The notes under the pieces: model-generated
The model's database searches: none
What the model saw: the letters and a program-made list of their open reading frames with translations, nothing else
What the model was told of the DNA's origin: nothing
Part shown: positions 19,873-56,110 of the stretch, one piece after another
Layout: every line of letters begins with the position of its first letter
Numbering within the stretch: position 1 is the first letter of the stretch
Translations under genes and position numbers: made by a program
NCBI RefSeq assembly: GCF_000013445.1
Contig: NC_007796.1
Location: 3,074,936-3,138,935, forward strand
Source: Methanospirillum hungatei JF-1
GTDB taxonomy: Archaea > Halobacteriota > Methanomicrobia > Methanomicrobiales > Methanospirillaceae
Direction: 5' to 3'
Length of the DNA: 64,000 nt

Positions 19873-20026
19873 TATCCAGAATAACCAAATAAACCGTTTT
19901 ACCCAAATGTTCCTTGGGACAATCTACTTTCGCACTTGTTCCAAAGGGTTTGACTTCTCGTTTATAAAAACCACAAATGTTGTTTACCTTCAGTTCTGTA
20001 GCAACATTGAATGGAACAGTTCTCAT
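19862..20026 (-). CDS. DUF2080-like small transposon-associated protein
   Basis: A 54-residue protein (MRTVPFNVATELKV...) with the segment KPFGTSAKVDCPKEHLGKTV, followed by YLVILDNDE. This matches the pattern of DUF2080 proteins (G-N/T-S-x...P-K-x-x-x-G-K-x-v), small putative transposon-encoded proteins common in methanogen IS elements, probably with a swapped-hairpin DNA-binding fold. Its stop overlaps the transposase start by 11 bases. It takes the position that tnpA/tnpB hold in bacterial IS66 elements. Function is unknown; a regulatory or accessory role in transposition is inferred. Confidence 0.7.
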   Translation of the reverse strand: MRTVPFNVATELKVNNICGFYKREVKPFGTSAKVDCPKEHLGKTVYLVILDNDE

Positions 20027-20055
20027 TAGATATCTATTAGATATCTATAGTATTT

Positions 20056-20065
20056 AATACTTACT
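20056..20065 (+). repeat. 10-bp target-site duplication of the nested IS4-family element, left copy
   Basis: AATACTTACT directly precedes the inverted repeat at 20066; the second copy is at 21849-21858. Confidence 0.85.
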
Positions 20066-21848
20066 CATGTAAGACAGCTTTGGAGATAGATCCAGATCCG
20101 GCGACATAATTTTTCAACTTTCCGTAATATCAAATATGTCTCATACATAAACCTCGAGATACCTCTCCCACTTTATTCTACTACTCGTACGCGCTAATGT
20201 GTCACTATAGCGGTCTAAACTAAAAACATTGAAGCTTCGTATAGGCACTAGAGAAAAAAGGAAGAATTACGAGTTTTTCCTGATTTTTTACCGATAGCCA
20301 GTAGTACCTAACCCTCCATCGGGTCATTTATCCGAAGATAAGACCCTATTGAATTTCTGAAAATTTCAAGGTGAGAGTTTCGTTATTGTTGCGGCTTTTG
20401 CCAAGGTGCCGCAGTGATCTTTCTAATTTATCCCATCGTTTCTTAACATTGCCTGTGCCAAATAAATTTTGATTCAATATGCTCAAAAACTCCAATCCTT
20501 TCTCTGAAAATACTTTTGACCATAGCATCTGAGTATATTTTCCTTTATCATTTTTTCGAGTCGTAGATACAATCCAGGTAAACAGATCTCTGCTAATAAT
20601 AAACCGTAGCAACATGGAATAAATGTGAATAAACGCCATTGGTTCATTATTGAGTAACATTTTTCCAAGGTCGTAATCCCCTTTCAATTCCTTGAAAATA
20701 AGTTCAATCACCCAGCGAAATCGGTATAACTCATAAATATCATCAGCAGAAAAAACCTCTTTTCCGAGATTTGTGATGTAGAGATGCCATTTTTCAGTGA
20801 GAGGATTCCAAGAACAAATTACCCTGAATTCTTGAAATATTGGAGTTTTAATTTTGTTAATATGCTTGTCTCCAATATGAAATGAACAGATGAGATCATA
20901 AACACCTTTCTTTGGCATTCTATCTAAAAAATCATCACCATTTATGCTTTTAAAGCAATTATGATCTACAATTGATGTTATTTCTGGAGGGCCTGAATTG
21001 ATTGAAACAACCTTAAAAACGGCATTGCTTTTTACTCTACTAGCAAAAAAACCTCCATATTCTTGAATTTTAGAGAATGTTTTCAGAGAATAGTATCCCA
21101 GATCGTTAATCAGGAGAATATTTTCAACATCAGGTCCAATTTTTAGCATCTTATAGTCATGAACTCTTTCTGTTGTAATTATTGCATTTTTTACAGAATG
21201 GTAAACAACACTGTAAACTGCATGGATCTTTAATCCTGCAGAATCGTCACGGGAACGTGCTGCGGGATGCAAATCGTAGAGCTTTTTACTAATTCGAATA
21301 ATGCTGCTGTCTTGAACTAAAATATCTTTGAAATCCTCAACAATTCCCTTTAAATGAGCAGGGGACTGATGAACTATTTGATCGATATAATGATCCATCA
21401 GGGATTTCAAAAAATCTACTAATTTATAATTAAACCGTTTCCTGAAACTTTGGTTAAGAATTGAGGTTTCAATCTTTGGATTATCATCAAGATCAACATA
21501 ATGACGATGAATCTCCTCTAATGTGGGTTTTAGATGACTGCTGACTCCAAAAATGAGGGAAAATATCAAAAGGACAGGATCGAGTTTCCGTTTTCTCTGC
21601 ATAAATCCTGTTTCCCGAGCTTTTTTTTCTATAAAATCAAAGGTAAATTTCTGAAATACCCAAGATTTTAGGTTTTTTTGACCCTTAGAAGAAGGCTTCT
21701 TCATATTCTTTAGGTCGCCCGACGGTGCTCACCGTAGGGCGGCGCCGAAAATATATAAATGTATCGATTTAAGGTTGGAATTGTATTCTTGCTCAGTAAC
21801 ACTGATTTTTGCTTAGTTAGGTATCAGGCCATAAAGCTGTCTTACATG
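20066..21848 (-). mobile_element. IS4-family insertion sequence nested in the IS66 element
   Basis: A 1783-bp element with perfect 16-bp terminal inverted repeats CATGTAAGACAGCTTT (20066-20081 and, inverted, 21833-21848), flanked by a 10-bp direct duplication AATACTTACT (20056-20065 and 21849-21858). It has one transposase gene on the minus strand. It landed just upstream of the DUF2080-like gene of the host IS66 element, so it may have separated those genes from their promoter. Intact ends and an intact transposase suggest a recent insertion. Confidence 0.92.
20346..21704 (-). CDS. IS4-family transposase
   Basis: A 452-residue DDE transposase. The family signature Y(2)R(3)E(6)K is exact in YRFRWVIELIFKELKGDYDL (near residue 335). 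The first catalytic aspartate is in ILVQDSSIIR, and the second in LLINDLGYYS. The length is normal and the frame is uninterrupted. It fills most of the nested element and ends about 280 bp from its left inverted repeat. Confidence 0.92.
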   Translation of the reverse strand: MKKPSSKGQKNLKSWVFQKFTFDFIEKKARETGFMQRKRKLDPVLLIFSLIFGVSSHLKPTLEEIHRHYVDLDDNPKIETSILNQSFRKRFNYKLVDFLKSLMDHYIDQIVHQSPAHLKGIVEDFKDILVQDSSIIRISKKLYDLHPAARSRDDSAGLKIHAVYSVVYHSVKNAIITTERVHDYKMLKIGPDVENILLINDLGYYSLKTFSKIQEYGGFFASRVKSNAVFKVVSINSGPPEITSIVDHNCFKSINGDDFLDRMPKKGVYDLICSFHIGDKHINKIKTPIFQEFRVICSWNPLTEKWHLYITNLGKEVFSADDIYELYRFRWVIELIFKELKGDYDLGKMLLNNEPMAFIHIYSMLLRFIISRDLFTWIVSTTRKNDKGKYTQMLWSKVFSEKGLEFLSILNQNLFGTGNVKKRWDKLERSLRHLGKSRNNNETLTLKFSEIQ

Positions 21849-21974
21849 AATACTTACTAAATTCCCTTGATTTTTTATCAGAAAAAAGATGACAAACAAA
21901 TATATTATGGGGGAATAATCCTATAGAAGTAGATTTCTCTATTTTTGATTACTTTCTAAAACCTGAATTGTTAC

Positions 21975-22449
21975 CCTTTTTTTTCACGAGGACGGAGAAA
22001 ATGACATCAACAGTACTGTAATAACGCAGGAGTTTAAATATCCTGAAGATTCTGCATAGTCTACAGAACTGAACGACCCTTGGATGAAATGGGAAAAAGA
22101 GTGCTACGTAAAAGGGAAGAATTGCGATAAGGTCGATAATCATGTAAATAGTACATGCATATTTGAGCCTTCCCTTCACCGGATCACGATAGTCCTTGAA
22201 ACAGGTACATGTCCAGATTCTCAAAATATATTCAATGGTAAAGACCAGAACCGTAATAATCTCAATGAAAGTAGCGATTTCCCGGAATTCTTCATAGATA
22301 GATTTGTATGATTCCAGGAAGATGAGGGCTACATTAACTAAAACAAGTATAATTATGAAGAAATCAAAAAACCGGTCAGGTTTGGATTCATGATCAGTAT
22401 CATCGATAATATTGAAGATTTTCCACTTCAGTGAAGATTCAGAATCCAA
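21975..22449 (-). pseudogene. Voltage-gated K+ channel, N-terminal half (gene split by IS66 element)
   Basis: It encodes the voltage-sensor half of a six-helix channel: S1 (RFFDFFIIILVLVNVALIFL), S2 (ITVLVFTIEYILRIW), S3 (MIIDLIAILPFYVAL) and the arginine-bearing S4 (RVVQFCRLCRIFRIFKLLRY). The frame reaches VLVKKK, where the IS66 element begins; read-through into the element adds nine residues before a stop at 21949. The pore half is at 17893-18337. The intact gene would have been 303 codons from the ATG at 22449. Confidence 0.9.
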
Positions 22450-22541
22450 TCTTATCAGAATTAATGTCTTTTTTTAAGAAGAAAATGGTGTCGATGATTA
22501 TCTTCTTTGAAAGAGTGAGTATAAGCAAAAAAAGAAGAGGA

Positions 22542-24245
22542 TTATGTATCAGATTGGGATTCTACATACTCTATTGCTTTTTCGTATTGGGATCTGATAT
22601 GGGCTTTCATCTCTTCAAAAGCAGCATCAAAATCTGATTCATTCGTAAGATAAGTATATCCTTCACGCTCACCATCCGGTCCGATGACAGATGATGCAAT
22701 GATATCATGATACTGATCACAGATCTCTTCCATCTTTTCTGGATCAAAACTCGTTTCTGCAACTCTTTTCAGAATTTGAACATACAGTGCATGGTACTCT
22801 TGATCATCCATGAGATACCTGATGAGCGGCCATCTTTCAGTTACATTCTCCATTGAAAACGATACACTGCTACCCATTCCCATACCCGGGCCGAATTGAC
22901 CGTCCATTCCGGACATGGTCATATTCATACCACCCGGTGGCATGAAACCAGGCTGGTTCGGATTATTCATTCCATCCGGTCCCCACTCATGTCCGGGTCC
23001 TTTCATTTCAGGAAAGGTCATGTTCATCCCTTCAGGTGGTGCAAACCCAAAACCCGGTGTTTTATTCATCTCGGCAGAACCACCATCTCCAAAATTTTTC
23101 CCCATTCCTTCCATGAATGCATAATTGTTATCCCAGGGGATCCAGCTGAATGTCCCGGTATCCGGATTATTATACAGGTAATAATTCCGTGCATTTCCTC
23201 CATACGTGTCCCAATTTTTGATGAGCGTATTGGTTGCCAGCCAGGTGAGAAACTCAGTGACGTTAAGGATTGATTCAAGGTCTGATCGCCAATTTTCGGG
23301 ATTTTCGGTTCGTGTCTCTGAATGAAGAATAGTGTAGAGTTGTTCGATGTCAGAATAGTCTCCTTCATCTTCATTGGTTTTCTTCTCGAAGTGAGAGAGA
23401 TTGAGTTTTCCGAAAGCAAAGGTTGCACCTTCTTCCTCCGGTTTATAGAGATTTCCCGTTCCGTTTGAGAACTGAGTTTTAATAACCGTATCATCGATGC
23501 TTTCAACGAGGGTATAGAGGCCGAAATATTCAAATCCGTCTCCTTTATCGATGAATACCTTATAAAAAGCAGTCTCCGGAGCGATCACCCCTGCATCCTG
23601 AAAGATTTCAGGGGCTAATTTTTCCCGTATGACAGACACATCAGACATTCCGGATTGTAGATTGAGTTCTTTAAACCCGAAAAAATTCTGATTCTTTGTC
23701 TCAGGGAACTCATCCTCGTAGTGATCCATATCAACTTTTAAGGAGATCTTCCCGATTCCCTCGCTCCATGCAGTCATCAGGGAGTTTACTCCTTTATACC
23801 TGATACCGACATGATCCCAGGTTTCGTTCTGAAATGAGATGGTGGCGGGAACATATACCGGATCTTCCTGATTCAGAAAACCAGGGCCGTTTTCACCAGG
23901 TGGTTTTGGCATATTCATTCCTGCTGATCTGTTAACATCAGGCATGTTTTCACCCGGACCACCCCTTTTTCCGGGTCCGGGCATACTCCCACCTCCAAAC
24001 TCCCCGTACTTGGCCGTCATGTCTTCCTGCATTTCGGTCCAGGATTCAGGACTGATGGTGATATTAATTTCACGGATTTCATCATCCGGAAAGACCGTAT
24101 CATAGTCGGGAGCCGAATCTGATGCAAGGAGGTGTAAACTCTCATTTACATCAGCACTTCCTGGCTGAAGGAGAAGGAGACAGATTGCAACCAGGATAAG
24201 TGCAAAAATCTTTGTCGAAAAGCTAATTTGTGTCATGATAGTCAT
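22542..24245 (-). CDS. Secreted CotH-type (CotH kinase family) protein
   Basis: A 567-residue exported protein (signal peptide around TKIFALILVAICLLLLQPGS). The CotH pattern is seen in YDTVFPDDEIREINITIS, VGIRYKGVNSLM, NLYKPEEEGATFAFG, YGGNARNYYLYNNPDTGTF and SWIPWDNNYAFME. CotH of Bacillus is an atypical protein kinase of spore coats; in archaea this family recurs with VTC and DUF4956 genes, which lie at 16320-17824. Two low-complexity inserts rich in Gly, Pro, Met and Asn (about residues 80-125 and 375-455) are unusual. The target is unknown. The gene is 92 bp upstream of, and transcribed toward, the broken channel gene. Confidence 0.82.
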   Translation of the reverse strand: MTIMTQISFSTKIFALILVAICLLLLQPGSADVNESLHLLASDSAPDYDTVFPDDEIREINITISPESWTEMQEDMTAKYGEFGGGSMPGPGKRGGPGENMPDVNRSAGMNMPKPPGENGPGFLNQEDPVYVPATISFQNETWDHVGIRYKGVNSLMTAWSEGIGKISLKVDMDHYEDEFPETKNQNFFGFKELNLQSGMSDVSVIREKLAPEIFQDAGVIAPETAFYKVFIDKGDGFEYFGLYTLVESIDDTVIKTQFSNGTGNLYKPEEEGATFAFGKLNLSHFEKKTNEDEGDYSDIEQLYTILHSETRTENPENWRSDLESILNVTEFLTWLATNTLIKNWDTYGGNARNYYLYNNPDTGTFSWIPWDNNYAFMEGMGKNFGDGGSAEMNKTPGFGFAPPEGMNMTFPEMKGPGHEWGPDGMNNPNQPGFMPPGGMNMTMSGMDGQFGPGMGMGSSVSFSMENVTERWPLIRYLMDDQEYHALYVQILKRVAETSFDPEKMEEICDQYHDIIASSVIGPDGEREGYTYLTNESDFDAAFEEMKAHIRSQYEKAIEYVESQSDT

Positions 24246-25259
24246 ATGAAATTGTGTATTCCGTCCGGAATGGGATGGGGCTTGAGAGTATTATCTGACA
24301 GCCATGGCTGCCTGAAGACAGATATCTCGTACTGAGTGAAATATTAAAAAAGCGGATTCAGATGGTTGAAAGATACAACAGATCAGTATGACATTACTAA
24401 AACCAGGTACGTATCCAGGTGAAGAATAGGAGGCAGATGTAATTTTCAATGAAATGTTATTCTTTCACAGAACTGAATCGCCTGGTGAACAATAGTATTT
24501 GATCCTAACAGCCCATTTTTTTAAAATCCCATTCAGAAATTGACAAAATAATAAATGAAGGGAATAAAAAGAGATGATAGTAAAGATACATTGTCACTAT
24601 GTGGACCGTGACATCGACATTAATTCTCTTTAATTTGCTTTTAAGGGAAGAATGGTATTCTTCTCTCATGTTTCCTCTTGCCTGGCTCCACTGGGATGGA
24701 TGCACAGGCAATAAATATTTATCCAGAATACGTATTGTTAGATTGTCAAATCCGGAAGCCCGGAAGAGACTTAGGGGATAGTATTTATTTCGAATCCGTT
24801 TCCTTATTGCATGTGGAGCACTGGGATATTTGCTCCATATGTATGTTACTTTTCATCGAAATTCACTGTTACAATGCACGTGTTTGAATTCACGACTCAC
24901 AAAGAATAAGGCATCTCTTAAAAAACAACGAATACTATGATGATCCGTTGTTTCCAAGGAAGAAGATTCCAACAATGAATAAGGTAATGGTACCCAAGGA
25001 AGTATCATTAGAGCAATTTTTAGAAATAATTGCAAAGGCGGATATCCTTATTAAAGCACCAGATCCTGATATTTATAATTTATCAAAGGCTGTTTCATGA
25101 ATGTTTTTTATTAGCACTATGAGACAAATTCAGGATGGGTATTTTTAATTTCACAACGTTAATTTCCTTTATTGTACTATCAAGATTGATTTATGCAACA
25201 GCTACTATTGTTCAAAAAAAGTAATACCTAATAACTTAGGCATTTGACTTTGGTATCTA
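24246..25259. other. Long intergenic stretch between CotH and tRNA-Phe
   Basis: About 1 kb with no intact gene. Short open frames near 24599-24887 lack start signals and coding character. The right part (24888-25100) holds what appears to be the tail of a lost gene, listed separately. This fits an area of repeated insertion and decay next to the nested IS elements. Confidence 0.5.
24888..25100 (+). pseudogene. Possible 3' remnant of an unidentified gene
   Basis: An open frame of 70 codons with protein-like composition: it includes HLLKNNEYYDDPLFPRKKIP and then VSLEQFLEIIAKADILIKAP, ending DPDIYNLSKAVS. It has no start codon before the internal ATG at 24975 (41 residues) and no ribosome-binding site. 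It may be the C-terminal end of a decayed protein, or chance. No family is recognised. Confidence 0.3.
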
Positions 25260-25333
25260 TGCCTCAGCCCGGATTTGAACCGGGGACAACCAGATCTTCA
25301 GTCTGGCGCTCTCCCAGTCTGAGCTACTGAGGC
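25260..25333 (-). tRNA. tRNA-Phe (anticodon GAA)
   Basis: On the minus strand the cloverleaf starts GCCTCAGTAGCTCAG. The anticodon stem CAGAC/GTCTG-type helix closes a CTGAAGA loop with anticodon GAA. The T-arm contains GGTTCAAATCC and the acceptor ends CTGAGGC with discriminator A at 25260. All four stems pair. CCA is not encoded. Confidence 0.93.
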
Positions 25334-46134: not shown

Positions 46135-46208
46135 TGGGCCCGCTGAGATTCGAACTCAGGATCTCCGCCGTGTGAAGGCGACGTCATAACCAGCTAGACC
46201 ACGAGCCC
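46135..46208 (-). tRNA. tRNA-Val (anticodon CAC)
   Basis: The minus strand folds as GGGCTCG (acceptor), D-arm with GGTCTAGCTGGTTATGAC, anticodon stem TCGCC/GGCGG closing the loop TTCACAC (anticodon CAC), a T-arm with GAGTTCGAATCTC, acceptor CGGGCCC and discriminator A. CCA is not encoded. Its 3' 37 bases recur inverted at 46602-46638. It ends ten bases from the attL site of the inserted element, so it was probably the downstream partner of tRNA-Gly before insertion. Confidence 0.93.
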
Positions 46209-46218
46209 CATGAACTGA

Positions 46219-46234
46219 TATGCACCGATCGGGA
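46219..46234 (-). repeat. Putative attL: 16-bp copy of the tRNA-Gly 3' end
   Basis: TATGCACCGATCGGGA is identical to 55946-55961, which covers the 3' T-arm strand, acceptor strand and discriminator of tRNA-Gly (read on the minus strand), and lies in the same orientation. This is the arrangement left when an element integrates at the 3' end of a tRNA gene. Confidence 0.82.
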
Positions 46235-46600
46235 GAAATTGCGGTTTTAGAAGCTAAACTAGTGCTTTCAAACATTTGTTCTTGATGTATATAAACCGGA
46301 TCACAGTTTTCTACTGAATTGCCGGTTTGGATTGCCGATTGATGCCATAATGGAAGGGTCCCGGACTGTAACGCGAGTAGAAAACCGGTTTTTGATTCTG
46401 CCTCCACATCGACCAAAATATATGATTCAGATATTTTATATATTGCGAAGGATCTTCCTATAAATTTGTTTTTAATTGAATCGACAGGGAAACGTATATA
46501 GGGATAGACATAACCAGATTTTGGTTCAGTTTTCCTACCTTGGGTCCAACCAAGAAAATGGGGCTCCATGAATACTGAGAGGCAGTAATAGAATAAAATG
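46235..46600. other. Left arm of the integrated element, no accepted gene
   Basis: This 366-bp stretch lies between attL and the inverted tRNA-Val fragment. The minus strand is open from 46569 (MEPHFLGWTQGRK...) through attL into tRNA-Val and stops at 46156. It has no ribosome-binding site and ends inside a tRNA gene, so I do not accept it as a gene. In the excised circular form it would read a different tail. A decayed integrase was looked for but no recombinase motif was found. Confidence 0.4.
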
Positions 46601-46601
46601 G

Positions 46602-46638
46602 CGGCGGAGATCCTGAGTTCGAATCTCAGCGGGCCCAT
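46602..46638 (+). repeat. Inverted 37-bp fragment of the tRNA-Val 3' half
   Basis: The plus strand repeats the last 37 bases of tRNA-Val (46134-46170 on the minus strand) exactly: from CGGCGGAGATCC through the T-loop GTTCGAATC to GGGCCCAT. It covers the 3' anticodon stem, variable loop, T-arm and acceptor strand, but the 5' half is missing. It is inverted relative to the intact gene. It may be an att sequence carried by the element. Confidence 0.88.
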
Positions 46639-46699
46639 TAATTGAAATATTGATATATCCAGAATCTAGTGAATATCATAATCAATATAGACAAGATAA

Positions 46700-47488
46700 T
46701 TATCTAAAATCAACTATTTCAGGCTTTAAAACATCTTTCAGAACATCTATTTGTATTTGATATTCATATAGAATTGAATTAAATTTCTCTTCAAGTTGAG
46801 GCCAATCTCTGTCCAATTTTAGTTTGGGGAACAACACCTCAATTATCATTTCTCTTGTATAAAGGTGGGAACATTGATCAAGAGCGCAAATAATGAGATA
46901 ATACCAAAAGGTGGCTAATTGATTACCTTCAAAGTAATATTTTCGATATACTATCGATTCTTTTTTAAATTCATAGTGGATAAACCAACGGTACCAAAAT
47001 GCACATGCGATGTTCAGCACCCATACAAGTTCATTAATATATGATTTTCGCCCAGACTGATTTTCCATTCTCATTTCATCAATAACTAGGGAAAAGGCAG
47101 GATGTAAATGCTGATTATGGGAAAAATATGTAATATATTTTTTATAGGATTCTGGGACCGTTGAGCTAATAAAAATATCAGGCTCCCCCCATTTTAGTAA
47201 TATTAAGTAACAAAAACCCAACAGTGACAAAGAGCATTGATGCTTTTCACGTAATTTTTCACTATTGGTAATTTTAACAGTAATAAATTGTTTTTCAATT
47301 AGAGAATTGATATGGGGGCTTAAAGTTGAACCCGATTGGTTCAATTTTTTGGTTAAATCGCTTTTACTTATTGGAATAGGGTTTTTGTCAGAGTCTAAAC
47401 TAAGTATAACTAATCCTTCCAAAATCTGCTTATCATACTTTCCTGCTCTTTCAAGAACAAAATCAACAAGATCTAATCTATTTAACAT
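46700..47488 (-). CDS. Winged-helix-containing hypothetical protein of the element
   Basis: A 262-residue protein. The N-terminal 85 residues look like a winged helix: ISKSDLTKKLNQSGSTLSPH supplies the recognition helix, then INSLIEKQFITVKI the wing. The remainder is helical and aromatic-rich (WVLNIACAFWYRWFIHYEF) and not recognised. It is transcribed away from the primase gene. The 147-bp gap contains an inverted repeat (47520-47553) that could be its operator, so a regulator of element replication is plausible. AT-rich codon use matches the rest of the island. Confidence 0.6.
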   Translation of the reverse strand: MLNRLDLVDFVLERAGKYDKQILEGLVILSLDSDKNPIPISKSDLTKKLNQSGSTLSPHINSLIEKQFITVKITNSEKLREKHQCSLSLLGFCYLILLKWGEPDIFISSTVPESYKKYITYFSHNQHLHPAFSLVIDEMRMENQSGRKSYINELVWVLNIACAFWYRWFIHYEFKKESIVYRKYYFEGNQLATFWYYLIICALDQCSHLYTREMIIEVLFPKLKLDRDWPQLEEKFNSILYEYQIQIDVLKDVLKPEIVDFR

Positions 47489-47519
47489 AGGTTCGTTTTT
47501 CTAAATAAAATCCGAATGT

Positions 47520-47553
47520 TTCGAAAATGATTAAAATTTCTGAAATTTTCGAA
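47520..47553. promoter_or_regulatory. Inverted repeat, possible operator
   Basis: TTCGAAAAT (47520-47528) and its reverse complement ATTTTCGAA (47545-47553) are separated by 16 bases in the divergent gap between the winged-helix gene and the primase gene. This would suit a dimeric regulator controlling both directions. Confidence 0.5.
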
Positions 47554-47635
47554 TATATGCCTTAATTCACTCATTTATGACTAAATATGCTTGGGTTCAA
47601 TGTTTGTATGCCCATAGATAGGGCAGGAGAAATTA

Positions 47636-48232
47636 ATGACAAAGTTAGAATTCAACACGGAAAAAGAAGCCATCAGATCTACTGTTGTCGATGAAAAATT
47701 AAAAGAATGCCGGTTTATCCTCGTTGCGTCTGGATCAAAAAATCCTATAGAAAAGGAGTGGTCCAGTAAGAATAATTATTCCATTGATGACCCAGTACTC
47801 CAAAAACACATATCATCGGGGGGAAATTATGGTGTGATACCATCTAGCACAATTGCAGTTCTTGATGTTGATGAAAAAGACATTTTTGATCGTTTGGAAA
47901 TCCTTGATTATTTAAAGGAAACCTTTATTGTCAAGACAGGTTCTGATGATGGCTATCACATTTATCTTAAAATTAAGGACGAATGCCCTGCCAAAAAAAT
48001 TCCACTCTATGATCCCAAAGATAATAGCAAACACATCGGAGAGATTTTTTTTTCAGATTGTCCAGCCTTTGTAGTTGGACCCGGATGCACACATCCTTCT
48101 GGTAATAAGTATCTCATCACAAATGATGCCCCTATTATGGAAATAACCTATAATCAAATTCAGGAGATGATACTTTCAAAGGTTCATTACAAGACTTTGT
48201 TCAGGATGATTCTTCCAATCAAACCACAGTGA
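47636..48232 (+). CDS. PrimPol-like primase/polymerase domain protein
   Basis: A 198-residue protein matching the AEP-type bifunctional primase-polymerase domain found in plasmids and viruses. The first metal-binding motif is IAVLDVDEKD, the second is KTGSDDGYHIYL (the sGxHxYl pattern), and FVVGPGCTHPSGNKYLI is the typical third segment. A strong AGGAG precedes the ATG. It would synthesise primers or copy DNA of the element. It overlaps the helicase gene by four bases (GTGA). Related proteins are usually fused to their helicase in one chain, so this is a split, coupled version. Confidence 0.82.
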   Translation: MTKLEFNTEKEAIRSTVVDEKLKECRFILVASGSKNPIEKEWSSKNNYSIDDPVLQKHISSGGNYGVIPSSTIAVLDVDEKDIFDRLEILDYLKETFIVKTGSDDGYHIYLKIKDECPAKKIPLYDPKDNSKHIGEIFFSDCPAFVVGPGCTHPSGNKYLITNDAPIMEITYNQIQEMILSKVHYKTLFRMILPIKPQ

Positions 48233-50046
48233 TATTCCCGGATGCAAAGGTCACCAAGGAGGGTAAAACTCTATCAGATACCCTAAATCTTGAGGTAGTG
48301 AAGATTTTGCATCCAGATATGACTAGACCCCTCCATAAATTGGGAGATGAAATTTGTGGGACACATCCAATACATGGCAGTACTACAGGGAAAAATTACT
48401 GCATCAATACCAGCAAGAATCTTTGGTACTGTCATCGTTGTGGAAGTGGTGGGGGGCCATTAGAAGCTGTTGCAGTCAAGTACGGTCTAATTAATTGTGA
48501 GAAAGCTGGCAGAATCAAGATCAGGGGTGATTTATTTAAGGATGTAAAAAACGCTCTCATTGAACATGAGGGTTACAGAGATCAGATTAAAGAGCTGGAT
48601 GCAGATTGGAAAAAGCAGAATCGTTCTCGAAAAGGAGGGAATGAGGAGGAACAATTCTATGTTCTCACGTACTTTGAAAAAGGGGGAAACTTATACCTCA
48701 CGACTGTCAGTGATGATCAGGTCTACCAATTTGTACACTTAGATGAAAATAGGAATTACATTTTTGACAAATGTATCACCTCACCTTATGGGTACACGAT
48801 ATACCCGCGTGAATTGCCCATACATCAGGACAGTAGGATGGTAATTCCTATTGTAGGTATACCTAACGGTAATATTCTCGAAATGAATCCAGTATTGGAT
48901 GCGATTAGTCTCTTTAATCTAATAATGGGGCATATGTCCAAATATCTCGATTCTGCTAAGCATGATCTGGAAATGTTTGCATATTATGCAATGTTCACAT
49001 GGTTTTATGTGAAATGCGTAACAACCCCATATCTTCGGTTTTTAGGAGATACAGGAAAAGGAAAAAGTCGGTTCTTAAGAGTGGTGTCAGATCTTTGCTT
49101 TTATCCTCTCTCTGCTTCAGGAGCATCCAGTTTTGCAGGCCTCATGAGAACCCATGAGAAATGGAGAGGTACACTTCGAATCGATGAAGCTGATCTTCGT
49201 GGTGGGGCTGAAAACCCGATAATTAAATATCTAAACTTAGGTTTTGAAAAGGGGCAGCCGTATATCCTGTGTGACAAGAATGATCTCTCTCAAGGAGAAT
49301 ACTTCGATCCCTTCGGACCGAAAATCATCGCTATGAGACAACCATTCATCGATGTTGCTACTGAAGGCAGATGTATTTCTTATTCCCCTTATGAAACAGA
49401 GAGGAAGGACATTCCTTCAGAACTCTCTAGGGAGTATTTTGAACAGGTTGAGATTATCAGAGCCCATTTAGCAGCATTCACTTTACATCATTGGAATCAG
49501 GTGGATGGAGAAAAGATGATTGATCTATCCACTTTCAATGTTGAGCCACGATTGAAGCAGATGATTAGACCGCTCTCAATAATGCTCCAAGTCTTTCCGG
49601 ATGGGGAAAAGAGGATAACAGAGTATCTCATGAAGAGGCAAACCGAAGTAAAGAAGACTCGTTCTGAATCATGGGAAGGAGGTATCTTTAATTATGCTTT
49701 GTCTTTAGCGTTAGGGGATGAATTTGCAGAGAATGCACAATTTGCTGACTACTACGAGGATAACGAAATTTTGGTAGTAACTGCATCAATGATCTCGAAA
49801 CCATTTAACTCATCACCAAAAAGTATAACCCGTACTCTTCATTCTATTGGGTTTGAGATTGAAAGGGACCGGATTTACACGAAGTATGATACACTAAAAG
49901 GTAAGCAGGTCAGGAAGTTAGTGGTCCCCAATGAAGCAAAGTGGAGAGAAATTGTTCAACGGTACTATTTCGATGAGGGAGAACCACTTCCACCATCTTG
50001 TCCTAAAGTCCTCAGAGGAAAACGCTATGTGGAGTCTCCGGCTTAA
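48229..50046 (+). CDS. Zinc-finger and P-loop replication protein (helicase-like)
   Basis: A 605-residue protein starting with GTG inside the primase stop. The N-terminal part has a CHC2-like primase zinc finger: CGTHPIHGSTTGKNYCI, then LWYCHRCGSGGGPLEAVAVK. The middle has Walker A GDTGKGKS in LRFLGDTGKGKSRFLRVVSD and Walker B TLRIDEADLRGG, followed by KIIAMRQPF. The C-terminal part looks like a winged helix. It is likely the replicative helicase of the element, working with the PrimPol. The next open frame (50083) is in the same frame after a single TAA, so the protein may once have been longer. Confidence 0.82.
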   Translation: MIFPDAKVTKEGKTLSDTLNLEVVKILHPDMTRPLHKLGDEICGTHPIHGSTTGKNYCINTSKNLWYCHRCGSGGGPLEAVAVKYGLINCEKAGRIKIRGDLFKDVKNALIEHEGYRDQIKELDADWKKQNRSRKGGNEEEQFYVLTYFEKGGNLYLTTVSDDQVYQFVHLDENRNYIFDKCITSPYGYTIYPRELPIHQDSRMVIPIVGIPNGNILEMNPVLDAISLFNLIMGHMSKYLDSAKHDLEMFAYYAMFTWFYVKCVTTPYLRFLGDTGKGKSRFLRVVSDLCFYPLSASGASSFAGLMRTHEKWRGTLRIDEADLRGGAENPIIKYLNLGFEKGQPYILCDKNDLSQGEYFDPFGPKIIAMRQPFIDVATEGRCISYSPYETERKDIPSELSREYFEQVEIIRAHLAAFTLHHWNQVDGEKMIDLSTFNVEPRLKQMIRPLSIMLQVFPDGEKRITEYLMKRQTEVKKTRSESWEGGIFNYALSLALGDEFAENAQFADYYEDNEILVVTASMISKPFNSSPKSITRTLHSIGFEIERDRIYTKYDTLKGKQVRKLVVPNEAKWREIVQRYYFDEGEPLPPSCPKVLRGKRYVESPA

Positions 50047-50082
50047 AGGACACTCTCTGTAGATATCAATGATGAGACTGGA

Positions 50083-50529
50083 TTGAAGAGATGGGATTCA
50101 ACACCCTCTCCAAAATTTGAAGATTCAAATCTGTCCCTTCCTACCAGTGTCGTTATTACATCTGGAACATTGAGCACAAATAGCACGGAGAACTTTGAAA
50201 GTGAACCACTAGAGTATGTAGGACAAACCGGGAAAAATTCTCTAATTCCTTATGAACAATGTACCTCAATTGTGCCATATAAGACAGTTGTTCCGGATCA
50301 TAACGAGATCAGGACTTTTCAATCAAGCTATGATTGGAAGGAATTTTACGCGGTTCCGATTCTTGTAAGTGCTCATTCATACACGCGGTTAGTTAAATCT
50401 GATGGAAAATGGTGCATGGTAAAGGGGTGTACGAAGACACCAGAATATGGAAACCAGCATGGCATGTATCCTCTGTGTTCTGAACATTATAGAGAATTAA
50501 AAAACCTTGAGATGGGGGAATTACTATGA
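50083..50529 (+). CDS. Hypothetical protein with C-terminal zinc-binding motif
   Basis: A 148-residue frame with the only available start a TTG at 50083. The first 100 residues are Ser/Thr-rich and appear disordered. The C-terminal part has a likely zinc site: WCMVKGCTKTPEYGNQHGMY followed by PLCSEHY, giving four Cys/His ligands in the order CxxxxC...CxxH. The frame is continuous with the helicase across one TAA codon and 12 codons. Its stop overlaps the next gene's start by four bases, so it is translated. Function is unknown; it may be a separate DNA-binding protein or the former tail of the helicase. Confidence 0.6.
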   Translation: MKRWDSTPSPKFEDSNLSLPTSVVITSGTLSTNSTENFESEPLEYVGQTGKNSLIPYEQCTSIVPYKTVVPDHNEIRTFQSSYDWKEFYAVPILVSAHSYTRLVKSDGKWCMVKGCTKTPEYGNQHGMYPLCSEHYRELKNLEMGELL

Positions 50530-51224
50530 GGGAGATTATCAAGAAGGTATGTTTAGGGGCGGTAGCGTTATTCTGTGCGATTGTTGCAGGGTGTGCATTC
50601 CTTCTCTCATATACAAATTTGCGGGAGCTAGCAGAAAAAGCAGGCATTTCTTCTTCTCTCTCCCCCTTATGGCCAATATGCTTGGATTCATTATTAGTAG
50701 TATCAAGTATTGCCATACTCTACAATAATCTTTCGAGAAAGGGTTCTCTTCGGCTTTGGGCGATTTTTATTGCCTTTTCATTGGGAAGTTTATGGTTTAA
50801 CGTTTCAAATAGTCCTGATAATCTTCAGGTTCAGTTGGTACATGCCTTGCCGCCGTGTGCCTTATGTGTTGCTATTGAAATCTTGACCTATATGTTGCGA
50901 TCAAAGTTAGATGAGGGGGACAGTCTCTCTCAAAATATTAATGATGGTTTATTTATTTCAGAATCTGTGTGTATTGATAAGAATTCGAAAGCGTTACCTC
51001 ATTCAACACAATTGATAGGGGAAAAAGAAAAGGTACTTGAATATTTCATTCAGAATCCGCGTGTAACCTATAGACAAGCGGGTGAAGACCTAAATCTTAG
51101 CCCATCAATCGTCTCTATGAGGGCGAAACAACTTGTAGAGGAAGGTTTTCTGGCAAAAGAAGTCGTTTTCACTAAAAGGGGAAGAAAACCTAATAATTAT
51201 CAAGTAGAAGAATTTTTCACATGA
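50526..51224 (+). CDS. DUF2637-like membrane protein fused to a winged helix
   Basis: A 232-residue protein. The N-terminal 125 residues have four hydrophobic helices with the DUF2637 pattern: LSYTNLRELAEKAGISSSLS, PLWPICLDSLLVVSSIAIL and ALPPCALCVAIEIL. The C-terminal 70 residues are a winged helix (NPRVTYRQAGEDLNLSPSIV, MRAKQLVEEGFLAKEVVF). DUF2637 proteins are best known from actinobacterial plasmids and integrative elements, where they are linked to transfer. In the archaeal version the membrane part may anchor a DNA-binding domain. The function is not established. It overlaps the preceding gene by four bases. Confidence 0.68.
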   Translation: MREIIKKVCLGAVALFCAIVAGCAFLLSYTNLRELAEKAGISSSLSPLWPICLDSLLVVSSIAILYNNLSRKGSLRLWAIFIAFSLGSLWFNVSNSPDNLQVQLVHALPPCALCVAIEILTYMLRSKLDEGDSLSQNINDGLFISESVCIDKNSKALPHSTQLIGEKEKVLEYFIQNPRVTYRQAGEDLNLSPSIVSMRAKQLVEEGFLAKEVVFTKRGRKPNNYQVEEFFT

Positions 51225-51268
51225 GAAGTAGGTCCAATTTCTGGGCCTTCTCGGATAATGGATACTAA

Positions 51269-51288
51269 AAAATGGTATTAACCATTTT
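51269..51288. promoter_or_regulatory. Perfect inverted repeat, operator or terminator
   Basis: AAAATGGT and ACCATTTT flank the spacer ATTA. The 20-bp structure lies 45 bases after the DUF2637-like gene and about 55 bases before the next small gene. The lack of a T-run after it favours an operator over a terminator. Confidence 0.45.
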
Positions 51289-51342
51289 AATATTGAAATC
51301 CCGACCCACCTTTTTATCTCAATAAGTGGACGTTAATGGCAT

Positions 51343-51603
51343 ATGATATTTAAAAGAGATGTATTAGTGGACTCACCGCTCACCTATGATCAAGCTCATA
51401 CGGTTTTATCAGAAGCGATATTTGACCTGAAGAATTTGATCAAATCAGGAAGGATTCGTGATCCAGAAAGGGATAGAGTAAGAGTAGAGAGTTATCGAAC
51501 CTTGATTGATCTTTGTATGGATTACTGTTACATGCAAATATATAGTGAAATATTAGAACTAAGAACCGAATTAAATGAAATCGTGAGAAAGGAGGCAGCA
51601 TGA
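51343..51603 (+). CDS. Small hypothetical protein
   Basis: An 86-residue acidic helical protein (MIFKRDVLVDSPLTYDQAHT...) with a likely coiled-coil C-terminus (YMQIYSEILELRTELNEIV). No family is recognised. The stop overlaps the start of the next small gene in ATGA, so it is part of a translated chain of three small genes in the element. Confidence 0.55.
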   Translation: MIFKRDVLVDSPLTYDQAHTVLSEAIFDLKNLIKSGRIRDPERDRVRVESYRTLIDLCMDYCYMQIYSEILELRTELNEIVRKEAA

Positions 51604-51722
51604 AAGCCCTTGCACCCTTGGTTAAGCCTCTCAAGCAGGTCCCTTTTATGAATATTAAACCCCAAGAAATGGGAAAGAAAAAAAGAAAATCACTGAAGGA
51701 GATAGAAGGTGTCCGATCATGA
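51600..51722 (+). CDS. Very small basic protein (40 residues)
   Basis: A 40-residue peptide (MKALAPLVKPLKQVPFMNIK...) that is strongly basic (GKKKRKSLKEIEG). Three observations support it: an AAAGGAGG Shine-Dalgarno five bases before the ATG, a four-base ATGA overlap with the preceding gene, and another ATGA overlap with the following gene. It could bind nucleic acid. No family is recognised. Confidence 0.6.
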   Translation: MKALAPLVKPLKQVPFMNIKPQEMGKKKRKSLKEIEGVRS

Positions 51723-52081
51723 ATGTCAAATTAGAGGGGAACTTAAATAAGTCCTATAATGGAAATATCTGCGGTAACTATCAGTTTACTGATGAACAGG
51801 AATTAAAGATTGAAATAACGCCATATCTAATAAATGTAACCTTCCCTGAAGGATTAGCTTTCAAGAATTTTGTTGATTATCAAAAAGAATTATATTATTG
51901 GGTTGGACTCAAACCCACCCAATATCGTTTGAAGACCGAGGAAAATACTACCATTATTGAGATAGACTTACCTCCTCCAGATTGTAAATTCCGGTTGGAA
52001 ATGGGAAAAGAAAACCTTTGTTGGGCTGGTTTTGAAACAAGAACCACAAGATACCTTAAAAGATATTCACTCATCCAATAA
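51719..52081 (+). CDS. Small hypothetical protein
   Basis: A 120-residue soluble protein (MNVKLEGNLNKSYNGNICGN...) with beta-strand character. It is preceded by GAAGGTG about eight bases before the ATG and overlaps the 40-residue gene by four bases. It is the last gene of the rightward run that begins with the primase. No domain is recognised. Confidence 0.55.
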   Translation: MNVKLEGNLNKSYNGNICGNYQFTDEQELKIEITPYLINVTFPEGLAFKNFVDYQKELYYWVGLKPTQYRLKTEENTTIIEIDLPPPDCKFRLEMGKENLCWAGFETRTTRYLKRYSLIQ

Positions 52082-52346
52082 CGTTAGTTTTTGCTGTTGT
52101 GGTATCATTACCTCATTAATAATTTTAATATTTTTCCAACCAATCAAGTTAAAAGAATCACAAAAATATTGGCAAATAGAACCCTTTTCGACATAGGTAT
52201 AAATAAAACCTAAAAACGAAGATATTCACACGATTTGAGGTTTATCATTCATTTTTAGTATATATTTACTAGCGTCGACAAAAATTTTACCGACAGATTT
52301 TTGGCGAACTGGAAAAGCAGAATAATTTATAACACTTTGTATATAA
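52082..52346. other. Short gap before the first repeat copy
   Basis: This 265-bp AT-rich stretch lies between the end of the small-gene run and the first 1592-bp repeat. No gene or clear structure was found. Confidence 0.4.
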
Positions 52347-52350
52347 TCCC

Positions 52351-52659
52351 ATGAAAATTATCACAAACAATTCCTTTTTGAAAAGAGATAACGGGATTAA
52401 ATTCTTTATGATCTTTGAATTAAAATATGCAAGAACATAATAAATGAAATAGAACAAATACGATTTTTGGACAATCCAAGATCGGGATAAAGTTCATTTT
52501 CACTTCAAGAAATGAAAAATTAGTGATACCATGCAAGGCTTTACCTATGATCTCTCTGGGAAAAATCGAAACAAATGGGACGATATGTTGAATTGTTATG
52601 AAGGTAGGTATATTAATACAATGAGAGAAGAACAAACTTCAAGATATTTTGATATTTAG
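52351..52659 (+). pseudogene. Multi-frameshift gene remnant, copy 1
   Basis: Protein-like segments follow one another in shifting frames: NGIKFFMIFELKYAR, then NIINEIEQIRFLDNPRSG, then IKFIFTSRNEKLVIPCKALP and MISLGKIETNGTIC, then NCYEGRYINTMREEQTSRYF and DI before a stop. Joined, they would make about 100 residues. No single frame carries them, so the gene appears broken by about three indels. No family is recognised. The same lesions are in copy 2. Confidence 0.45.
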
Positions 52660-52862
52660 GTAATTATCAAAATTTTACCAATTTTTAAGAATATTCAAGA
52701 TTTTTTGCCCAATTCTCTAAATCTATTTATTCAATAATAGTTGGAATTAAGAAATTAGACATAATTAACAAATTTTCTATTGATTGTTAAAAAAATTCTG
52801 AATCCTAGAATTTTTTCTCTGCGAGTATATTAGTTGGGATAGAAAATGATGAAGTAAAAAAA

Positions 52863-53120
52863 TTAGAATGGAATAAACGGAGGTTCATCACCTTCATTAA
52901 TTATTTGGGCTGTCTTATAAGCATCATATGCACACAAAAGAATCCAAATTGGATATAAAAGAATCCCAATTAATAGGAAAATTAAAATAAATAAAATTAC
53001 CGTTAACACAATGCATAAAAATCCTTTCCCAACTTGACCATTATAAATTTGTCCTAAACCCGGAATAAACAAACTTAAAATTCCTGCTACTATGGGGCTT
53101 TTTTCTTCCATGTTACTCAC
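52863..53120 (-). CDS. TM2-domain-like small membrane protein, copy 1
   Basis: An 85-residue protein. After MSNMEEKSP comes the TM2-type segment IVAGILSLFIPGLGQIYNGQ and VGKGF, a long hydrophobic region (two helices), and a short charged tail with YDAYKTAQIINEGDE. TM2 proteins have two helices joined by a short loop and unknown roles. It is divergent from the coiled-coil gene across a 145-bp gap and identical to the copy at 54831-55088. Confidence 0.75.
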   Translation of the reverse strand: MSNMEEKSPIVAGILSLFIPGLGQIYNGQVGKGFLCIVLTVILFILIFLLIGILLYPIWILLCAYDAYKTAQIINEGDEPPFIPF

Positions 53121-53265
53121 ATAAAATCCTAATAGTCATTCAAGTATCCACATAATAGATATATTATAGATACAAATAATTGGTACGACAATAAACAATT
53201 TATAGTCATCGCTTTATGATTCGATTATAAGGATTTGACTAAATTTAATTATTTGAGGTATCAAA

Positions 53266-53784
53266 ATGGGGTTTTTAGATAATATTGGTAAAGAGTTAGA
53301 CAAAGCTTTAGGTCAAACTAATACATCAAATGGAAACATTTCTTTGGTAAATAAAACTCTGAAAATACAAAAAGAATTTGATGAAACCGAACATTACTTG
53401 AATCAATTAAATGCTCGTTATACCGATGGAGAAATTGAACAAGAAACATACGAATCATTAAAAGATGATTATGAAAAAAAACGGTTGTATTTACTTGATC
53501 AAGTACGCAAGTATAAAGAAGAGTTTGAGAAATTACATTTTGAATCCGAATCGATAGTAAAACGGGTTGGATTTGAAAAAAGTGAAATATCCAGAAATAT
53601 TGTCAAATTATCTGATGATTTTGCAAAATCTATAATTTCTGAAAAAGAATTTAAAAATTCTAAACAAGAATTGGAGAATAAATCGAAAAAATTAGATCAA
53701 AATTTACTAAAATCAAAAAAGACATTGACAGAATTAGAAAAAGTAAAACCAATATTTAATGCATTATCCAATCCTGAAGAATAA
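53266..53784 (+). CDS. SHOCT-like coiled-coil protein, copy 1
   Basis: A 172-residue, highly charged, mostly helical protein (MGFLDNIGKELDKALGQ...). Two segments resemble SHOCT motifs: LNARYTDGEIEQETYESLKD (about residue 46) and SIISEKEFKNSKQELENK (about 125), linked by long coiled coils. A GAGGT Shine-Dalgarno lies seven bases before the ATG. It pairs with the divergent TM2-type gene; SHOCT and small membrane domains often occur together, so the two may form one membrane-linked assembly. Function is unknown. Confidence 0.65.
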   Translation: MGFLDNIGKELDKALGQTNTSNGNISLVNKTLKIQKEFDETEHYLNQLNARYTDGEIEQETYESLKDDYEKKRLYLLDQVRKYKEEFEKLHFESESIVKRVGFEKSEISRNIVKLSDDFAKSIISEKEFKNSKQELENKSKKLDQNLLKSKKTLTELEKVKPIFNALSNPEE

Positions 53785-53806
53785 ACTCTTTATTTTTTTC
53801 TATTTA

Positions 53807-53937
53807 GAGGCAGTTGCATAATAAAATTGCGGTTTGCTCAAGAACACAATTCCCACTCGATTGAAAGCACGATTCTTGAGAAGTATTTTTGATTTTTACC
53901 TCAACGTATTCGTGGTATGGAATTATGCAACAGCCTC
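53807..53937. mobile_element. 131-bp MITE-like element, copy 1
   Basis: The ends are near-perfect 16-bp inverted repeats: GAGGCAGTTGCATAAT on the left and, read inward from the right, GAGGCTGTTGCATAAT (15 of 16). There is no coding sequence. An inner inverted repeat CTCAAGAA...TTCTTGAG suggests a hairpin. The ends resemble those of DDE insertion sequences, so this may be a non-autonomous derivative. Its right end coincides with the right end of the duplicated unit. Confidence 0.7.
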
Positions 53938-54128
53938 ATAATCACCATGATAAATATCTGGTTTTTTTGTATACTTTATTGATACCACTGAACTCATAAT
54001 ATCATCGACTCCTAAATTTCATATGCGTTATTTTGTTATCGGTGGAGCTTTAATATCTACAAAAAGGAGATAATCTCTTTTTTTTTACATATTAGACTAT
54101 TAATTGCAAGATAATAGTTCAATATTAA

Positions 54129-54290
54129 ATGGCTATCAAAAAGTATGAGATTTCTGGATATAATTATATAGAGAAATCTGTCAAGAAAGGAGCTAATTCA
54201 GGACGTATTTATGTGCCGACAAAGTGGATTGGCAAAAAAACCGCTGTAATATTACTCGAGCCAGAAAATATTTCTATTGATAGCGAATAA
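54129..54290 (+). CDS. DUF2080-like transposon-associated protein, orphan
   Basis: A 53-residue protein (MAIKKYEISGYNYIEKSVKK...) with GANSGRIYVPTKWIGKKTAV followed by ILLEPENI. This closely fits the DUF2080 pattern of small transposon-encoded proteins in methanogens, and is related to the one in the IS66 element at 19862-20026. It lies in the 376-bp spacer between the two repeat copies with no transposase beside it, so it is probably the relic of another insertion sequence. Confidence 0.72.
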   Translation: MAIKKYEISGYNYIEKSVKKGANSGRIYVPTKWIGKKTAVILLEPENISIDSE

Positions 54291-54318
54291 ATTGATTTTC
54301 GTTGAATTTTATTTTCCC

Positions 54319-54627
54319 ATGAAAATTATCACAAACAATTCCTTTTTGAAAAGAGATAACGGGATTAAATTCTTTATGATCTTTGAATTAAAATATGCAA
54401 GAACATAATAAATGAAATAGAACAAATACGATTTTTGGACAATCCAAGATCGGGATAAAGTTCATTTTCACTTCAAGAAATGAAAAATTAGTGATACCAT
54501 GCAAGGCTTTACCTATGATCTCTCTGGGAAAAATCGAAACAAATGGGACGATATGTTGAATTGTTATGAAGGTAGGTATATTAATACAATGAGAGAAGAA
54601 CAAACTTCAAGATATTTTGATATTTAG
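54319..54627 (+). pseudogene. Multi-frameshift gene remnant, copy 2
   Basis: Identical to the remnant at 52351-52659, including its frameshifts. Because both copies share the lesions, decay happened before the duplication. Confidence 0.45.
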
Positions 54628-54830
54628 GTAATTATCAAAATTTTACCAATTTTTAAGAATATTCAAGATTTTTTGCCCAATTCTCTAAATCTATTTATTC
54701 AATAATAGTTGGAATTAAGAAATTAGACATAATTAACAAATTTTCTATTGATTGTTAAAAAAATTCTGAATCCTAGAATTTTTTCTCTGCGAGTATATTA
54801 GTTGGGATAGAAAATGATGAAGTAAAAAAA

Positions 54831-55088
54831 TTAGAATGGAATAAACGGAGGTTCATCACCTTCATTAATTATTTGGGCTGTCTTATAAGCATCATATGCA
54901 CACAAAAGAATCCAAATTGGATATAAAAGAATCCCAATTAATAGGAAAATTAAAATAAATAAAATTACCGTTAACACAATGCATAAAAATCCTTTCCCAA
55001 CTTGACCATTATAAATTTGTCCTAAACCCGGAATAAACAAACTTAAAATTCCTGCTACTATGGGGCTTTTTTCTTCCATGTTACTCAC
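54831..55088 (-). CDS. TM2-domain-like small membrane protein, copy 2
   Basis: The encoded 85 residues are identical to copy 1 at 52863-53120, with the same divergent partner and promoter gap. Confidence 0.75.
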   Translation of the reverse strand: MSNMEEKSPIVAGILSLFIPGLGQIYNGQVGKGFLCIVLTVILFILIFLLIGILLYPIWILLCAYDAYKTAQIINEGDEPPFIPF

Positions 55089-55233
55089 ATAAAATCCTAA
55101 TAGTCATTCAAGTATCCACATAATAGATATATTATAGATACAAATAATTGGTACGACAATAAACAATTTATAGTCATCGCTTTATGATTCGATTATAAGG
55201 ATTTGACTAAATTTAATTATTTGAGGTATCAAA

Positions 55234-55752
55234 ATGGGGTTTTTAGATAATATTGGTAAAGAGTTAGACAAAGCTTTAGGTCAAACTAATACATCAAATG
55301 GAAACATTTCTTTGGTAAATAAAACTCTGAAAATACAAAAAGAATTTGATGAAACCGAACATTACTTGAATCAATTAAATGCTCGTTATACCGATGGAGA
55401 AATTGAACAAGAAACATACGAATCATTAAAAGATGATTATGAAAAAAAACGGTTGTATTTACTTGATCAAGTACGCAAGTATAAAGAAGAGTTTGAGAAA
55501 TTACATTTTGAATCCGAATCGATAGTAAAACGGGTTGGATTTGAAAAAAGTGAAATATCCAGAAATATTGTCAAATTATCTGATGATTTTGCAAAATCTA
55601 TAATTTCTGAAAAAGAATTTAAAAATTCTAAACAAGAATTGGAGAATAAATCGAAAAAATTAGATCAAAATTTACTAAAATCAAAAAAGACATTGACAGA
55701 ATTAGAAAAAGTAAAACCAATATTTAATGCATTATCCAATCCTGAAGAATAA
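55234..55752 (+). CDS. SHOCT-like coiled-coil protein, copy 2
   Basis: The encoded 172 residues are identical to copy 1 at 53266-53784, including start region and Shine-Dalgarno. Confidence 0.65.
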   Translation: MGFLDNIGKELDKALGQTNTSNGNISLVNKTLKIQKEFDETEHYLNQLNARYTDGEIEQETYESLKDDYEKKRLYLLDQVRKYKEEFEKLHFESESIVKRVGFEKSEISRNIVKLSDDFAKSIISEKEFKNSKQELENKSKKLDQNLLKSKKTLTELEKVKPIFNALSNPEE

Positions 55753-55774
55753 ACTCTTTATTTTTTTCTATTTA

Positions 55775-55905
55775 GAGGCAGTTGCATAATAAAATTGCGG
55801 TTTGCTCAAGAACACAATTCCCACTCGATTGAAAGCACGATTCTTGAGAAGTATTTTTGATTTTTACCTCAACGTATTCGTGGTATGGAATTATGCAACA
55901 GCCTC
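55775..55905. mobile_element. 131-bp MITE-like element, copy 2
   Basis: Identical to 53807-53937, with the same 16-bp imperfect terminal inverted repeats. It sits at the right end of the second repeat copy. Confidence 0.7.
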
Positions 55906-55947
55906 AATAAAAAACTAATTTCCGGCAAAACACAAGAGAAAAGATTA

Positions 55948-56018
55948 TGCACCGATCGGGATTCGAACCCGAGCTATTGGCTTGGAAGGCCAAAGTCATA
56001 CCTCTAGACCATCGATGC
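55948..56018 (-). tRNA. tRNA-Gly (anticodon TCC)
   Basis: The minus strand folds with acceptor GCATCGA/TCGGTGC (one G-T pair), D-arm GGTCTAGAGGTATGAC, anticodon stem around the loop CTTCCAA (anticodon TCC), T-arm GGGTTCGAATCCC and discriminator A. It is 71 nt and CCA is not encoded. Its 3' end is the integration site of the 9.7-kb element: 55946-55961 recurs at 46219-46234. Confidence 0.93.
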
Positions 56019-56110
56019 AGATGCTCTATAACGTTGAGCATAGTTGTATTTAATATTTGTCAAATCACCCTGACACAACACTTCTCACCATCAGATCCAA
56101 ATATTCACCT

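Follow-up and report, generated by a model that had tools for sequence, protein, structure and literature searches.

What lies between the genes for tRNA-Val(CAC) and tRNA-Gly(TCC) in Methanospirillum hungatei JF-1, and how did it get there? We analysed 64,000 nucleotides (nt) of this genome (contig NC_007796.1, positions 3,074,936 to 3,138,935). We call this whole stretch the window, and all coordinates count from its first base. A first-pass annotation, made from the letters alone, had proposed an AT-rich 9.7-kb element of plasmid or virus type at this locus, integrated at the 3' end of tRNA-Gly. We found that the window copy is a genuine integrated element of a known kind, and that it is old, composite and decayed. 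In the reading that we favour, with a probability of roughly two in three, an element of a family found in the order Methanomicrobiales entered at tRNA-Gly through a short attachment site (att) and then decayed, its integrase end being overwritten by the remains of an element of tRNA-Val.

The insertion and its empty site

The following features delimit the element:

46135..46208 (-): tRNA-Val(CAC), adjacent to tRNA-Gly where the site is empty (ARAGORN)
46219..46234 (+): left copy of the 16-bp repeat TATGCACCGATCGGGA, the putative attL, equal to the 3' end sequence of tRNA-Gly
55911..55945 (+): right end of the element, adjoining tRNA-Gly and resembling the right end of a remnant in genome G004 (alignment)
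55946..55961 (+): right copy of TATGCACCGATCGGGA, at the 3' end of the intact tRNA-Gly
55947..56019 (-): tRNA-Gly(TCC), intact (ARAGORN)

In five congeners (L012, L014, L015, L016 and L017) tRNA-Val(CAC) and tRNA-Gly(TCC) are adjacent, with a spacer of a few bases. This is the empty site that the first-pass annotation had asked for. In the three of these five genomes that were checked (loci L105, L106 and L107) the flanking genes on both sides are the same as in the window. Because the two tRNA genes are adjacent in the congeners, with the same flanks wherever these were checked, it is near-certain that 46235-55945 is inserted DNA.

The repeat has the properties first attributed to it. Its two copies are identical, have the same orientation, carry the tRNA-Gly 3' end sequence and lie at the coordinates originally given. 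They are the only matches in the 3,544,738-bp genome, even with one mismatch allowed; the reverse strand gave no match genome-wide and neither did a reversed control pattern. The left copy lies 10 bp off the 5' end of tRNA-Val(CAC). A direct repeat of a tRNA end is thus present together with an intact tRNA, as in a tRNA-integrated element. The base composition also agrees with the proposed AT-rich stretch: the flanks have a guanine plus cytosine content (GC) of ∼0.48-0.52, which falls to 0.33-0.41 (46-52 kb) and then to 0.28-0.29 (52-56 kb), the range of 27-29% beginning at ∼52.1 kb. The proposal of a plasmid- or virus-like element that integrated at a tRNA locus is in accord with both the empty site and the gene content described below.

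A second Methanospirillum, G004, retains a trace of a related insertion (L010). Here 335 bp separate tRNA-Val from tRNA-Gly and resemble the window element at its left end (46219 onward) and in its last ∼35 bp. The left 16-bp repeat of this remnant is degenerate and has drifted from the window copy. As the ends are common to both, the alignment suggests an insertion older than the divergence from G004, barring independent entry of related elements at this site.

Core genes and the element family

The left and central part of the element contains these genes:

46700..47488 (-): winged-helix protein (weak MarR/HTH matches; synteny)
47636..48232 (+): PrimPol domain (PF09250, 2.1e-9; frame reading)
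48229..50046 (+): zinc ribbon and P-loop helicase (Walker-A GDTGKGKS)
50083..50529 (+): C-terminal Cys motif in the helicase's own frame (cf. the C-termini of the L072 and L080 proteins)
50526..51224 (+): DUF2637 membrane protein ending in a winged helix (PF10935, 1.8e-43)
51343..51603 (+): 86-aa protein, no database matches
51719..52081 (+): 120-aa protein, no database matches, last gene ahead of the AT-rich block

The PrimPol and DUF2637 assignments of the first-pass annotation were borne out by the listed Pfam matches. For its P-loop helicase the Walker-A motif is present, but the protein has no Pfam helicase match. The gene at 46700-47488 has the place and orientation of the winged-helix gene of related elements, homology to that winged-helix cluster not being established. 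The reading frame changes between PrimPol and the zinc-ribbon part, and a single in-frame stop stands ahead of the C-terminal zinc motif of the helicase; in relatives the Cys motif of 50083-50529 is the end of the helicase protein. That the replication gene lies in pieces through decay is probable, not proven, since split and fused forms both exist among the relatives.

Within the window element we found neither TerS nor TerL and no match to the integrase families PF00589 and PF16795. The window copy also has no packaging gene of the kind that occurs without capsid genes in satellites resembling phage-inducible chromosomal islands (PICI). The 86-aa protein was considered as a TerS remnant and rejected (probability 0.5%, no TerS homology). 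The AlphaFold model of the helicase was too poor to be used (predicted local distance difference test 60), and sequence searches of the PDB with the helicase profile and PrimPol gave weak primase matches or none. In the comparison with virus and plasmid collections that had been recommended, the helicase had one weak match each among phage and plasmid records, two short matches in IMG/VR as a single sequence, and 30 distant relatives (25-39%), mostly within larger viral contigs, when the IMG/VR search used its profile; the DUF2637 protein had no match in IMG/VR.

Relatives of the helicase occur in 29 of 232 Methanomicrobiales genomes, in many cases with a PF00589 integrase at a distance of a few kb, and the window element belongs with them by its homologous PrimPol and helicase. 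In five relatives (L072, L074, L078, L084 and L087) the last 11-13 nt of a tRNA are copied at the start of an intact tyrosine integrase gene, with the tRNA itself at the opposite end. Taken alone, an 11-nt match to a tRNA is weak evidence; what counts is that it lies at the integrase and in which orientation. The repeat of 15-16 nt in the window element has the same layout, so that a tRNA 3'-end repeat in the family range of 11-16 nt lies at the winged-helix/integrase end and the tRNA opposite. The tyrosine integrase expected beside the att copy is missing, and its place is occupied by the two relics of the left border described in the next section.

The closest gene sharing with the window was observed for L080 and L082, two terminase-bearing elements that have the DUF2637 gene in common with it (protein clustering). 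The ends of the L082 contig overlap by 141 bp, and we therefore read it as a circle of 11,562 bp. A BLAST search for its own attP gave no clear tRNA match, as expected for an att of 11-16 nt. L072 and L078 encode TerL (phrog_7579, 1.8e-49 and 6.1e-68, respectively) and a TerS-like gene; L082 encodes the nuclease part of TerL, a shorter TerL-ATPase homologue and a TerS-like gene; in L080 a TerS-like gene is accompanied by genes for a head maturation protease (3.3e-27) and for a decoration protein (1.1e-4). The tested frames of the relatives gave no recognisable capsid, portal or tail family. These gene sets suggest that the relatives with a terminase and no recognised capsid gene are satellites or mini-proviruses, and it is because no such family was recognised that we raise a satellite lifestyle without claiming it.

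Only tentatively, then, would we describe the window element as a decayed member of an undescribed archaeal satellite family, that is, of 7-12 kb elements in methanogen hosts that carry PrimPol/helicase genes, use the last 11-16 nt of tRNAs, encode a terminase (in one case a protease and a decoration protein), lack capsid and tail genes and need helper particles. It weighs against this description that everything in its favour comes from the relatives. The first-pass annotation saw no match to a described family; there are relatives across Methanomicrobiales and the element fits the cryptic integrated elements discussed below, but we too found no paper on this particular family in the literature searched. 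The window copy itself is old and broken, yet it leads to a coherent family of methanogen elements, and it is the relatives that merit more attention.

Two further observations concern these relatives. Beside its terminase genes L082 (1-11703) carries a 1015-aa NosD/PKD/PEGA surface-type protein, which is probably cargo. The JF-1 genome also has a second PrimPol/helicase locus (L071, G000:C1:1870500-1890400) with 51% helicase identity and no tRNA or integrase nearby; similar loci occur in G002, G004 and G011.

A composite left border

Between the left repeat and the winged-helix gene we identified two relics:

46360..46569 (-): Int(N) relic, left from the N-terminal portion of a tyrosine integrase of the suicidal type (att inside the gene)
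46602..46643 (+): inverted copy of the tRNA-Val 3' half, tRNA positions 39-74 (repeat search)

In suicidal integrases the gene is interrupted by att, giving the order Int(N)-att-Int(C); in the review that describes them (PMC8371274), att sites in the 5' half of a tRNA are reported for pTN3-like integrases only. The earlier statement that no integrase is seen has to be withdrawn, as half of one remains. The reading of 46360-46569 as an accessory gene was dropped when a frame test identified it as Int(N). It is 75% identical to the Int(N) of an element in G004 and lies in an open frame (46156-46638) that crosses the 16-bp repeat and enters tRNA-Val, the frame being the one seen in G004. A fold search of the PDB with Int(N) gave no significant match.

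Relatives of this Int(N) lie beside tRNA genes. In all five complete cases (L088, L102, L108, L110 and L131) Int(N), att and Int(C) form one continuous frame, the att measures 42-44 bp and Int(N) is on the tRNA side. The C-terminal protein is a PF16795 integrase in L088 and matches PF00589 weakly in L108 and L110, and the proteins of L102 and L131 are homologues of the latter two; Int(C) of the Methanospirillum family is recognised weakly or not at all by PF00589 and PF16795. In L131, the G004 element, the 42-bp att is the 5' half of tRNA-Val(TAC) and its copies are 14.7 kb apart. L131 645-15345 is thus a 14.7-kb suicidal-integrase element in the tRNA-Val(TAC) 5' half of a Methanospirillum. 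Small resolvase-type serine recombinase genes also occur inside such elements, at L102 5416-5991 (PF00239 tested), directly upstream of Int(N), and at L108 8200-8784.

The window element has Int(N) at one end, as suicidal elements of the SSV/pTN3 type do; Int(C) and a second long att at the far end were not found. At the right end we looked for a decayed copy of the tRNA-Val 5' half; the matches did not exceed chance (p 0.25 and 0.06). The tRNA-Val fragment at 46602-46643, absent from the first-pass annotation, begins at the edge of the anticodon loop and is a second recombination footprint. In G003 ∼0.9 kb separate tRNA-Val(CAC) from tRNA-Gly, and this interval contains a degenerate Int(N) beside tRNA-Val(CAC).

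As the relatives of the Int(N) relic sit 5' of tRNA-Val genes, we regard the left border as composite. The repeat had been described as the standard scar of tRNA-targeted integration. An integrated element at a tRNA locus and the short-repeat geometry of its own family remain of this description, but the scar is not a simple one, with an Int(N) relic of that origin in the adjoining 370 bp.

Entry site and competing explanations

We propose the following course of events. A small PrimPol/helicase element would have inserted itself between tRNA-Val(CAC) and tRNA-Gly(TCC). Most likely it recombined site-specifically with the final 15-16 nt of tRNA-Gly, whereby the tRNA was rebuilt and a 16-bp copy left at the far end. 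Its relatives integrate by the tyrosine integrase encoded beside the short att copy and probably replicate via PrimPol and the helicase, and those with a terminase may be packaged by helper viruses. The window copy has decayed: where its integrase should be there are the inverted tRNA-Val fragment and an Int(N) relic that stems from a second element, one with a suicidal integrase; its replication gene is in pieces, probably through decay, and its AT-rich right half contains a recent duplication.

We regard entry at tRNA-Gly as likely, though short of proof, and the integration route is moderately supported. We favour it because the repeat is perfect, the spacing is native-like, the family has the same short-att geometry and the right end lacks a tRNA-Val half. 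The order of events in this proposal is tentative.

Several features of that border weigh against entry at tRNA-Gly. The Int(N) relic separates the 16-bp repeat from the core of the element, whereas the relatives have Int(N) on the tRNA side and the matching leader in G003 and in the G004 tRNA-Val(TAC) element directly abuts tRNA-Val. The frame of the relic is open through the repeat, as noted above. Judged by this arrangement the border looks unlike a simple junction with tRNA-Gly, and no integrase of the short-att type is left in the element to reveal the site used.

The same features would be expected if the element had instead entered at tRNA-Val, as a pTN3-like suicidal-integrase element in the 5' half of tRNA-Val(CAC) of which we see the remains. 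The 16-bp piece of tRNA-Gly at 46219 would then be element-borne or gene-converted, and the far-end tRNA-Val half and Int(C) would have been lost. The 75% identity to the Int(N) of an element with a tRNA-Val 5'-half att, the degenerate Int(N) adjoining tRNA-Val(CAC) in G003, the frame open into tRNA-Val and the position of Int(N) in 5/5 complete relatives all agree with it. We nevertheless consider it rather unlikely: the right end has no tRNA-Val 5'-half copy above chance and no Int(C), and neither the short-att geometry of the PrimPol core nor the tRNA-Gly 3' end at native-like spacing is explained.

Could the element still be fully active and be mobilised in trans, another integrase of the cell excising it through the two 16-bp repeats? 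The repeats are identical and other PF00589 integrases are encoded in the genome, but the replication gene is in pieces, the element has no integrase and the site occurs only twice in the genome. Moreover, the left repeat has drifted in G004, and the shared ends suggest long residence. We consider this very improbable, and present mobility of the window copy is unlikely. Finally, chromosomal backbone with a chance 16-bp match, for which nothing speaks except the shortness of the repeat and which the first-pass annotation had named among the outcomes that would overturn its proposal, is refuted by the five congeners with an empty site (three of them with matching flanks), the foreign genes, the GC drop and the uniqueness of the repeat.

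If the element entered at tRNA-Gly, two different integration systems overlap at this one tRNA pair: one has a short att at the 3' end, the other is of the suicidal type with its att in the 5' half.

A possible outward promoter toward tRNA-Val

One further feature lies between the left repeat and the Int(N) relic:

46288..46295 (-): TTTATATA, an archaeal TATA-like box directed outward to tRNA-Val (sequence reading and alignment)

The alignment shows the box conserved both in the remnant of G004 and in the tRNA-Val(TAC) element of that genome. As the two tRNA genes are so close at the empty site they are likely to be co-transcribed there, in which case the insertion would separate tRNA-Val from its promoter. 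The outward TATA box of the element may now drive tRNA-Val, cut off from tRNA-Gly; we infer this promoter function from the motif and its conservation. In pTN3-like elements, according to the literature, it is the promoter of the integrase that drives expression of the tRNA (PMC8371274). The locus suggests a simple way in which an element promoter could rescue a tRNA severed from its operon.

The AT-rich right part

The right part of the element is a 3.6-kb AT-rich block containing a 1.6-kb duplication that the first-pass annotation had missed:

52347..53941 (+): first copy of the 1.6-kb direct duplication, with a TM2-like protein, a coiled-coil protein and a terminal unit resembling a miniature inverted-repeat transposable element (MITE)
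54129..54290 (+): DUF2080 transposase-associated protein between the copies (NF033496, 2.9e-10; PF09853)
54315..55910 (+): second copy of the 1.6-kb direct duplication

The two copies are in direct orientation and 99.94% identical; the duplication is recent. No transposase accompanies the DUF2080 frame at 54129-54290. The MITE-like units (∼53807-53938 and 55775-55906) have the ends GAGGCAGTTGCATAAT, and about eleven further diverged copies occur in the genome.

Comparison with known systems

Phage satellites of the PICI and P4 types carry an integrase, a regulator, a primase/helicase and a TerS-like gene and have no recognised capsid genes. The relatives, not the window element, have those genes and a size of ∼7-12 kb. 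Unlike these satellites, the window element has no terminase, the hosts are archaeal and helper dependence is only supposed from the genes. If the terminase-bearing, capsid-less relatives do depend on helpers, they would be archaeal counterparts of the bacterial capsid-stealing satellites.

The cryptic integrated elements of Thaumarchaeota are likewise small and tRNA-integrated, with PrimPol/helicase replication genes and no recognised capsid or conjugation genes (PMC6563490). They differ in hosts and genes: the window copy lacks an integrase, which is their commonest gene, and the relatives described here carry terminases. With SNJ2-type integration (PMC8371274) the family shares an att of ∼14 nt within the tRNA 3' end and, in the window's relatives, a classical non-suicidal integrase, whereas the window copy has no such integrase and no pleolipovirus genes were identified. 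The pTN3-like and SSV-type suicidal elements (PMC8371274) resemble the window copy in the Int(N) relic beside a tRNA, and the G004 relative has its att in a tRNA 5' half as pTN3 does; the window copy, in contrast, lacks Int(C) and does not have a long att at each end.

Other AT-rich and tRNA-associated regions

The window contains a second AT-rich stretch (13500-25260, GC 0.34-0.44), which ends at tRNA-Phe (25260-25333) and holds two transposase-like open reading frames (18352-19872 and 20346-21704). A DHH-type gene follows the tRNA-Phe at 25377. The same order is found in G010 (L072), where it is the site of a short-att PrimPol element, and in L096 a similar DHH-type gene lies beside a tRNA-Phe with Int(N), which we read as a shared hotspot.

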